The notes beneath the pieces are model-generated. The model was not told the origin of the DNA. It was given only the letters and a program-made list of their open reading frames with translations, and ran no database searches. A DNA stretch of 64,000 nucleotides from Alphaproteobacteria bacterium (GTDB lineage: Bacteria; Pseudomonadota; Alphaproteobacteria; UBA828), in NCBI GenBank assembly GCA_022826665.1, contig JAJDUK010000089.1, positions 1 to 64,000 on the forward strand. The letters are read 5' to 3'. The position numbers and the translations under genes were made by a program. Positions 24,381 through 25,968 of this stretch are shown in pieces (positions within the stretch are counted from its first letter, which is position 1; every line of letters begins with the position of its first letter).

Positions 24381-25319
24381 CTAGGAGCGTGCGGGTCCGA
24401 CCGAGCGGCCGGCGAAGATTTCGCCGCGCTGGATCACGAGGCTGGCCGCCAGCACGATGACGACACCGGGGATAGTGAGCATGCTCGGCAGGCCCTTGCC
24501 CAGCGCCCAGTCGATCGCGATGACGAGGGCCGGCAGCAGGTAGCTGTAAGACTGGACGCGGGTCGGGCCGATCCTGATGGTGCCCCACTGCATCAGAAAC
24601 GAGGCGATCACCGTCGAACAGATCGCGACGAAGACGACCCCACCGTAGGCGAAGAGTGGCACATCCATCCACGCCGTGGTCCATAGCGCTTCGTTCGCGA
24701 TGAGCAGGAACAGCACAGCGTTGATGGTCGCGATCCAGAAGGTCATGACCAACACCGGCTCGCCCCGGTGGAAAAGCTTGACCAGCGGGCTGTAGAAGCC
24801 CATCGCGACGCAGCCTGCGAAATAGATCAGGTCGCCCTCGTTGAGGTCGAGTGCGACGAAGCGGTCCCAGTCGCCGCGGAAGACCACCCATAGCGCGCCG
24901 ATCAGGCCAATGCCGAGCGCCGCGAGACGATGCCAGCCCAGACGCTCGCCGACGAGGATCGCGCCCGCGATCGCCGTGAGGCCGGGGATCAGGGTCGAGA
25001 TCGCGCCGGTGTTGAGCGCGCTGGTGGTCCGCAGGCCGTAGAACATGCACCAGAAGAATGCGACCAGCGAGGTGCTGATCGCCGCGTAGCCCGCAAGCGT
25101 GCGCCAGCCCGGCCAGGCGATGCCGTGGCGCCAGGCGACCAGCGGCGCGAAGATCGCCATCGCCAGACCGAAGCGGATGAACAGAAGCGCACCGGTGTTC
25201 AACTCGTTGGCGATGGCCTCGCCCACCGGATAACTGAACGATATGAGGAACATGGCGACGAACACCCCGGCGTGAACGCCGGGCGTGGAGACGCCGCGCG
25301 AGGGCTGGGACTCGGTCAT
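24381..25319 (-). CDS. EamA/DMT family transporter
   Basis: The 312-residue protein has ten hydrophobic segments in two five-helix EamA repeats: SYPVGEAIANELNTGALLFIRFGLAMAIF in the first, DRFVALDLNEGDLIYFAGCVAMGFYSP in the linker and the second repeat after it. These proteins export metabolites or amino acids; the substrate is unknown. The ATG at 25319 opens MTESQPSRG; the open frame runs further upstream but that part is not EamA-like. It diverges from the small heat-shock gene. Confidence 0.82.
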   Translation of the reverse strand: MTESQPSRGVSTPGVHAGVFVAMFLISFSYPVGEAIANELNTGALLFIRFGLAMAIFAPLVAWRHGIAWPGWRTLAGYAAISTSLVAFFWCMFYGLRTTSALNTGAISTLIPGLTAIAGAILVGERLGWHRLAALGIGLIGALWVVFRGDWDRFVALDLNEGDLIYFAGCVAMGFYSPLVKLFHRGEPVLVMTFWIATINAVLFLLIANEALWTTAWMDVPLFAYGGVVFVAICSTVIASFLMQWGTIRIGPTRVQSYSYLLPALVIAIDWALGKGLPSMLTIPGVVIVLAASLVIQRGEIFAGRSVGPARS

Positions 25320-25460
25320 GGCGCGCCACCGTGGCGCAGGGTCGCGCGCAGGTCCAGCGCGGGACACGCGTGCTGGACCTTGAAATCCGGCTGGCGCATC
25401 ACCACGTGATTGGTGCCCAAGGGGGTGCCACAGATTGGGCTCCCAACAGGGCATGGAACC

Positions 25461-25509
25461 GGTTCGGCCATAACGGCGGACCACTGACTGACTTGCTTGA
25501 GAAAGGAGT
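25461..25509 (+). promoter_or_regulatory. ROSE-like RNA thermometer in the hsp20 leader
   Basis: Two hairpins lie directly before the hsp20 start. The first, 25461-25482, has an eight-pair stem with one bulged G and an AUAAC loop. The second, 25491-25509, pairs ACUU.CUU with AAGGAGU through seven pairs, leaving one bulged G inside UUGCU. It hides the whole AAGGAG ribosome-binding site (25503-25508), seven bases before the ATG at 25516. UUGCU with a bulged G opposite the ribosome-binding site is the hallmark of ROSE thermometers in alphaproteobacterial small heat-shock genes. The pairing was worked out by hand. Confidence 0.72.
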
Positions 25510-25515
25510 CACACC

Positions 25516-25968
25516 ATGCGTGCATTCGATCTTTCCCCGCTCTTCAGCACCACGGTCGGTTTCGACCGGATGGCCCGGCTGCTCGAGCAGGTGCCGAGCG
25601 AGACGGCGCCGACCTATCCGCCCTACAACATCCAGAAGATGGACGAGAACGCCTATCGCGTGACGCTGGCCGTCGCCGGCTTCGGCGATGACGAGATCAG
25701 CATCGAGGTGAAGGAGAACCTGCTCACCGTCGCGGGCAAGCTTGCCAAGGAGAATGGCGCGAACGAGAGCTATCTCCACCGTGGCATCGCCACCCGCGCG
25801 TTCGAGCGGCGCTTCAACCTCGCCGATCACATCCAGGTGACGGGTGCGGCGCTCGACAAGGGCCTGCTTCACATCGACTTGGTGCGCGAGCTCCCCGAAG
25901 CGCTCAAGGCGCGCAAGATCGCCATCGAGACCGGCGGCCAGAAGCGGCTCGACCGCAAGGCCTCCTGA
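25516..25968 (+). CDS. Small heat-shock protein, Hsp20/alpha-crystallin family
   Basis: Hsp20 proteins hold unfolding proteins for refolding by DnaK. The 150-residue product has a short N-terminal arm starting MRAFDLSPLFSTTVGFDRMARL and an alpha-crystallin domain with YPPYNIQKMDENAYRVTLAVAGFGDDEISIEV, FERRFNLADHI, and the GLLHIDLVREL signature. The C-terminal extension carries IAIE as a possible IxI-like motif. It is a lone gene with its own thermometer leader and a strong terminator, as usual for ibpA/hspH-type genes in this group. A CTTGAAA at 25379-25385 may be part of a heat-shock promoter, but I see no good -10. Confidence 0.94.
   Translation: MRAFDLSPLFSTTVGFDRMARLLEQVPSETAPTYPPYNIQKMDENAYRVTLAVAGFGDDEISIEVKENLLTVAGKLAKENGANESYLHRGIATRAFERRFNLADHIQVTGAALDKGLLHIDLVRELPEALKARKIAIETGGQKRLDRKAS

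Follow-up and report, generated by a model that had tools for sequence, protein, structure and literature searches.

The 5' leader of an ibpA-type hsp20 mRNA very probably harbours a ROSE-type RNA thermometer, which would be a complete and testable one in an alphaproteobacterial lineage known mainly from metagenome assemblies. The gene lies in a 64,000-nucleotide stretch of DNA (the window), and its leader and surroundings comprise the following features:

25489 to 25511, forward strand: hairpin III, the presumed thermosensor, which holds the ribosome-binding site (6 bp, bulged G25495, 3 bp, loop GAGA)
25493 to 25498, forward strand: anti-Shine-Dalgarno strand UUGCUU with the ROSE U(U/C)GCU motif, read from the sequence
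25503 to 25508, forward strand: Shine-Dalgarno AAGGAG, read from the sequence and predicted to be paired at 0.94-0.95 at 25 C
25461 to 25482, forward strand: hairpin II (6 bp, bulged G25467, 2 bp; helix 2 of alignment A3, 87.0% of cells paired)
25421 to 25444, forward strand: hairpin I (6 bp, bulged G25427, 3 bp; helix 1 of alignment A3, 86.8% of cells paired)
25516 to 25968, forward strand: hsp20, an ibpA-type small heat-shock protein of 150 aa (PF00011, 66.2 bits)
24384 to 25319, strand opposite to hsp20: divergent exporter-like gene (model match below cut-off)
25379 to 25407, forward strand: sigma-32-like promoter, CTTGAAA, a 14-nt spacer and CACCACGT (pattern match)
25413 to 25415, forward strand: presumed transcription start, placed from the -10-like box

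By homology the hsp20 product is an alpha-crystallin small heat-shock protein; the IbpA model is its best match (2.7e-45), but at 153.8 bits it stays below that model's cut-off of 212. Since the divergent exporter-like gene lies on the other strand, the leader is intergenic. The string CTTGAAA-N14-CACCACGT has its sole match in the 64 kb here and is found in 0 of 100 shuffles, a rarity that is illustrative only, the pattern having been composed after the site and its relatives had been viewed. CTTGAAR with the 14-nt spacer recurs 106-109 nt ahead of the ATG in all six same-genus leaders, followed by CNCCAYNT in five of them and by TCCCATAT in the sixth (L001). The site was called promoter-like by comparison with the sigma-32 consensus; its position implies a leader of ~100 nt, putatively transcribed from this promoter, and lessens the worry that the transcript might start downstream of 25461.

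In the predicted fold, the outer stem of hairpin III comprises U25489-A25511, G25490-C25510, A25491-U25509, C25492-G25508, U25493-A25507 and U25494.G25506, and the inner stem, beyond the bulged G25495, comprises C25496-G25505, U25497-A25504 and U25498-A25503, with all six bases of AAGGAG paired. The final hairpin of the original prediction, UUGCU with one bulged G against AAGGAG, is thus seen in both the sequence and the folds, and the second hairpin that it had placed just upstream depends little on where the transcript begins: with the 5' end set at seven positions between 25405 and 25421 (30 C), hairpins III and II hold with mean pair probabilities of 0.81-0.82 and 0.85, respectively. The interval that it had assigned to the element, 25461 to 25509, is slightly short, as the last stem reaches 25511, and its inventory, correct for hairpins II and III, had overlooked hairpin I at 25421-25444 and the promoter. 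Among 23 Shine-Dalgarno-preceded starts in the window, a mechanical list of ORFs of at least 140 aa that are not all real genes, the one ahead of hsp20 has its Shine-Dalgarno paired most fully at 25 C (0.94, the runner-up reaching 0.78).

The pairing was then compared across 68 collected hsp20 leaders (63 distinct; the lower-scoring matches of one search were left out), 57 of the 63 having UYGCU opposite RGGA no more than 45 nt from the start. In these 57, hairpin III has 91.9% of its cells paired and a covariation score of 0.459, versus 0.210 for shuffled and at most 0.179 for slid rows; as these rows had been selected for carrying the core motif and the geometry had been set to maximise pairing, it is the four outer pairs and the innermost one that carry the weight. 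Twenty-six leaders from outside the window's genus, picked by eye from 57, were aligned whole, and RNAalifold drew the three hairpins unaided, with changes on both sides in 17 of 21 pairs; adding six pairs manually brings the count to 21 of 27 and the score to 0.416, compared with 0.206 after shuffling and no more than 0.158 after sliding (0 of 500 shuffles). By helix, alignment A3 has changes on both sides in 7 of 8 pairs of hairpin II and 7 of 9 of hairpin I. These comparisons show that the predicted leader hairpins keep their pairing through compensatory changes among relatives. Within the genus (n=6) only 1 of 31 pairs changed on both sides, a variation too low for testing pairs. The 5' hairpins of hsp20 leaders carry a single bulged purine at the same place; at least one such upstream hairpin is present in 54 of the 63 leaders versus 21.2% of shuffles, and at least two in 30 versus 0.6%. 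Single-sequence folds of the relatives at 30 C gave uneven Shine-Dalgarno pairing, from 0.43 to 0.99 as measured at the first GGA, which is not always the core.

A covariance model (R1) built from the same 26 leaders, none of them from the window's genus, matched the window at 25407-25521 with 51.1 bits (E 7e-16; next 8.3), and in the whole genome this site is the best (next 16.2); R1 spans the start codon with its ATGCGT context, a stretch from which any leader of this kind gains score. Of 38 sources outside the training set, one being the window, 26 reach E 4e-5 or better and 6 others give weaker matches (E 0.0035-0.22), while L009, L013, L059, L065, L066 and L067 have no match at E up to 1. 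R1 also scores the hsp20 leader L058, from the window's family, at 50.0, and finds the E. coli K-12 ibpA (23.1 bits, E 1.3e-6) and ibpB (18.8 bits) leaders. The Rfam ROSE model RF00435 gives 44.8 bits (cut-off 45) on L058, and 34.7 and 33.8 on L056 and L055 of the same family. It is because R1 finds both the window and E. coli ibpA, and because RF00435 comes this far on a same-family leader, that we assign the element to the ROSE type; the ROSE arrangement put forward in the original prediction is thereby borne out, with covariation and the held-out model behind it. On the window itself RF00435 gave no match, even when 351 bases were searched with E as high as 10, and its gathering threshold of 45 bits, a database setting and no biological criterion, was not reached; at gathering threshold Rfam returned nothing in the window or in 20 other loci. 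The relaxed Rfam search of the 351 bases matched only a microRNA family (E 4.9), which was taken as noise. The second hsp20 of the same genome (L065, contig C92) has UCGCU facing AGGA ahead of its start; R1 scored its leader at just 12.6 bits (L020, E 0.031) and, with E allowed to reach 1, had no match in L065, and we do not claim this paralogue as a thermometer.

Across 144 genomes of the class, searched with stricter filters for both models and at E up to 0.001, R1 matched 88 places in 79 genomes. Protein search puts hsp20 behind 79 of these places, and reading adds one. We fetched 82 of the 88 (the other 6 being the window and five already known hsp20 leaders), which comprised 73 hsp20 by tblastn, one Hsp20 by reading (L136), four rpoH and four other. 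RF00435 gave 3 matches in the same genomes, 0 above cut-off, which suggests that Rfam's ROSE model is narrow; it also found nothing in 14 control genomes, Caulobacter among them, so that the sensitivity of this search is itself in doubt. The R1 matches at L161 (secA-like ORF) and L142 were judged by eye to be false positives. At L160 and L162 the matches have UYGCU ahead of a small protein and an alcohol-dehydrogenase-like ORF, possibly other targets or possibly chance.

FourU thermometers place four consecutive U opposite the Shine-Dalgarno; the facing strand in the window is UUGCUU, and this class was set aside. ROSE-like elements are defined, in PMC3669281 and PMC11342760, by U(U/C)GCU imperfectly paired to the Shine-Dalgarno with one bulged G, as is found here. 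The window likewise has this hairpin 3'-proximal in the 5' leader of a small heat-shock gene, the transcription of that leader resting on the promoter-like site, and one to three further 5' hairpins, II being robust and I supported by covariation but weak in the window's own fold. It is also homologous to characterised members, R1 finding the window, L058 and E. coli ibpA, whose RNA thermometer is counted among the best-studied ROSE-like ones in PMC3669281. ROSE ahead of hsp20 is well established in the literature (PMC3669281, PMC11342760, PMC3989490, PMC12857270), and the window element adds one overlooked member to this well-known kind.

With the alphaproteobacterial ROSE (RF00435; B. japonicum hspA ROSE1) the window shares the target gene, the hairpin order, U(U/C)GCU over the Shine-Dalgarno and the bulged G in hairpins I and III; it differs in scoring below the Rfam threshold, in having a bulged purine in hairpin II as well, and in that its possible start-codon clamp (see below) lies upstream of hairpin II, whereas the start-codon-facing strand of the RF00435 consensus adjoins hairpin III. 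E. coli ibpA folds with the same software into a like bulged-G hairpin over the Shine-Dalgarno, but its sequence is remote and its final stem shorter (3+3 bp versus 6+3 bp in the window). According to PMC3669281, the short ROSE-like elements of Pseudomonas ibpA share U(U/C)GCU in a 3' hairpin, a 5' hairpin and sigma-32 control, but have two hairpins in 61-62 nt, compared with three conserved hairpins in ~100 nt here. ROSE-like elements also exist outside hsp20, ahead of ABC transporter genes, and resemble the window in UUGCU, bulged G and Shine-Dalgarno pairing while differing in target gene (PMC11342760).

Homology to such elements strongly suggests that the window leader functions as a thermometer, and opening by heat would follow by analogy. 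At growth temperature hairpin III would block 30S binding; on heating, its weak stem with the U.G pair and the bulged G would open while the G+C-rich 5' structure would remain folded, translation would rise, and sigma-32 would contribute transcriptional induction on top. It is unlikely, and rather more than mildly so, that a stable hairpin instead lowers hsp20 translation at every temperature, with induction coming from sigma-32 transcription alone. The sigma-32-like promoter is compatible with such constant repression, as is the modest fall in Shine-Dalgarno pairing predicted by ViennaRNA for the window (0.95, 0.89 and 0.77 at 25, 42 and 60 C, respectively), but the E. coli ibpA control is equally flat with the same software (0.99 to 0.97 at 42 C). 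Since this control also stays flat, nearest-neighbour folding misses the opening reported for such elements, and we dropped the predicted melting curves as evidence either way. Constant repression is further countered by the retention of the UYGCU-RGGA core among relatives with the position opposite the bulge left unpaired. A chance hairpin above an ordinary Shine-Dalgarno is hardly credible: folding energy is weak (z -1.86 for 58 nt, with 7 of 200 shuffles equally stable; z -0.62 for 126 nt, with 54 of 200) and the motif by itself is not rare (TTGCT-N2..14-AGGAG-N3..10-ATG has 5 sites in the 4.6-Mb genome versus 3 for the reversed pattern), for which reasons neither was retained as proof on its own, but covariation and the held-out model contradict chance.

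Other readings concern the 5' half of the leader, where two more pairings come into play:

25414 to 25453, forward strand: alternative helix, UGCCC 25414-25418 with GGGCA 25449-25453 (RNAalifold and folds)
25451 to 25456, forward strand: GCAUGG, a possible start-codon clamp on CCAUGC 25514-25519 (fold)

Hairpin I is drawn in the fold of 25418-25530, in which all three hairpins consist of 6 bp, a bulged G and 2-3 bp, and its probability in the window is 0.66-0.73 from a 5' end at 25418 or 25421. From the presumed starts at 25413-25415 it is only 0.12-0.13, the UGCCC/GGGCA helix pairing instead (0.64-0.85), and the fold from 25405 also substitutes another structure. The case for hairpin I is therefore comparative: it covaries in relatives, and the held-out R1 aligns the window to it. 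The alternative helix competes with both hairpin I and the clamp in the window's own fold; within 25414-25519, GGGCAUGG is common to two mutually exclusive long helices, and the exact 5' end decides which of them wins. These predicted helices could be a switch or folding noise.

A start-codon clamp by GCAUGG is an unproven outcome of the folding model, and it is unlikely that the start codon is the main gate, with GCAUGG clamping CCAUGC and UGCCC pairing to the GCAUGG strand to release the start codon as a two-state switch. Such a gate would fit the pairing of the AUG in the fold of 25418-25530 (1.00 at 25 C, 0.97 at 60 C), the five pairs of the alternative helix kept in 6 of 6 same-genus leaders, and the sharing of the molecule between this helix and the clamp for 5' ends 25413-25415, where the competing helix reduces the clamp to 0.22-0.52 (0.97-0.98 from 25416 on). 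However, RNAalifold detects no covariation in the alternative helix, the 6-bp run of the clamp, found in 5 of 6 same-genus leaders, is also reached by 295 of 5000 shuffles and by 5 of 57 leaders outside the genus, and the best partner of the start codon attains only 0.27-0.63 in 4 of 6 genus members and is another base in L002. The leader also contains a six-codon ORF, MEPVRP (25453-25473), in frame with hsp20 in the window. That GCAUGG is conserved as the start of this ORF (ATG 25453 to its stop) rather than for pairing is very unlikely; the ORF is readable in 5 of 6 genus members, but it lacks a well-placed Shine-Dalgarno, and in L017, which has lost the stop, it reads through into hsp20. 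We thus retain a ROSE-type thermometer centred on hairpin III as the preferred reading.

The R1 searches further picked out candidate ROSE-type leaders ahead of rpoH, outside the window. The four class-wide matches at rpoH coincide with TIGR02392 matches above cut-off. A pattern scan of 90 rpoH leaders, with the R1-matched copies of G065 and G071 not among them, turned up 3 matches (one doubtful) and 0 in the reversed control, and was first read as a sporadic occurrence; family-level R1 searches overturned this reading. In G089's family R1 matches rpoH in 9 of 12 genomes (L263-L271), the match falling on the start codon in 8 of them and, in L269, on an ORF of 4 codons. G065's family has 47 R1 places in 25 of 26 genomes, and among the 30 examined, 22 (in 22 genomes) lead into rpoH (L274-L284, L287-L289, L291-L294, L296-L299) and 8 into hsp20, the highest-scoring rpoH case being L274 with 65.1 bits. 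Azospirillum contributes A. lipoferum 4B, Azospirillum sp. B510, A. ramasamyi, A. thermophilum and A. brasilense, with R1 matches of 31.1-39.5 bits ending at the rpoH start (L303-L307). In all, 8 rpoH loci were retrieved from 52 plasmid records, and R1 found no match in the remaining three (L308, L309, L310). Hairpin III is strongly conserved in sequence in the rpoH set (33 distinct rows). The rpoH leader of the window's own genome is without UYGCU.

On balance we favour the view that the window leader belongs to an alphaproteobacterial ROSE lineage, with like-shaped hairpins that each carry a bulged purine, which is also placed over rpoH in two families and in Azospirillum, on the rpoH start or on a short leader ORF, and that heat would open regulator and chaperone messages alike. 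No report of ROSE ahead of rpoH in alphaproteobacteria was found in a literature search conducted mostly by title and abstract, with subscription papers largely outside it; we offer these predicted leaders as a lead, more novel than the window finding, and make no claim of priority. The E. coli rpoH RNA device differs from the ROSE type. If the rpoH leads hold, RNA thermometers would gate the heat-shock sigma factor in some alphaproteobacteria, unlike the E. coli device.

The 22 rpoH cases in G065's family fall into two equal groups: in 11 the match sits on the rpoH start itself, and in the other 11 on a separate ORF, 7-31 codons long (nine in 7 of these), which ends 2-88 nt ahead of the approximate rpoH start; in L287, with the 31-codon ORF, the UYGCU core was not found. 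At ten of these loci (L274, L275, L276, L278, L280-L283, L294 and L299) the R1 match ends on the start of an ORF of 7-12 codons (nine codons in 7) that itself ends 47-88 nt ahead of rpoH, which raises the question of whether the short ORF encodes a thermometer-gated leader peptide.
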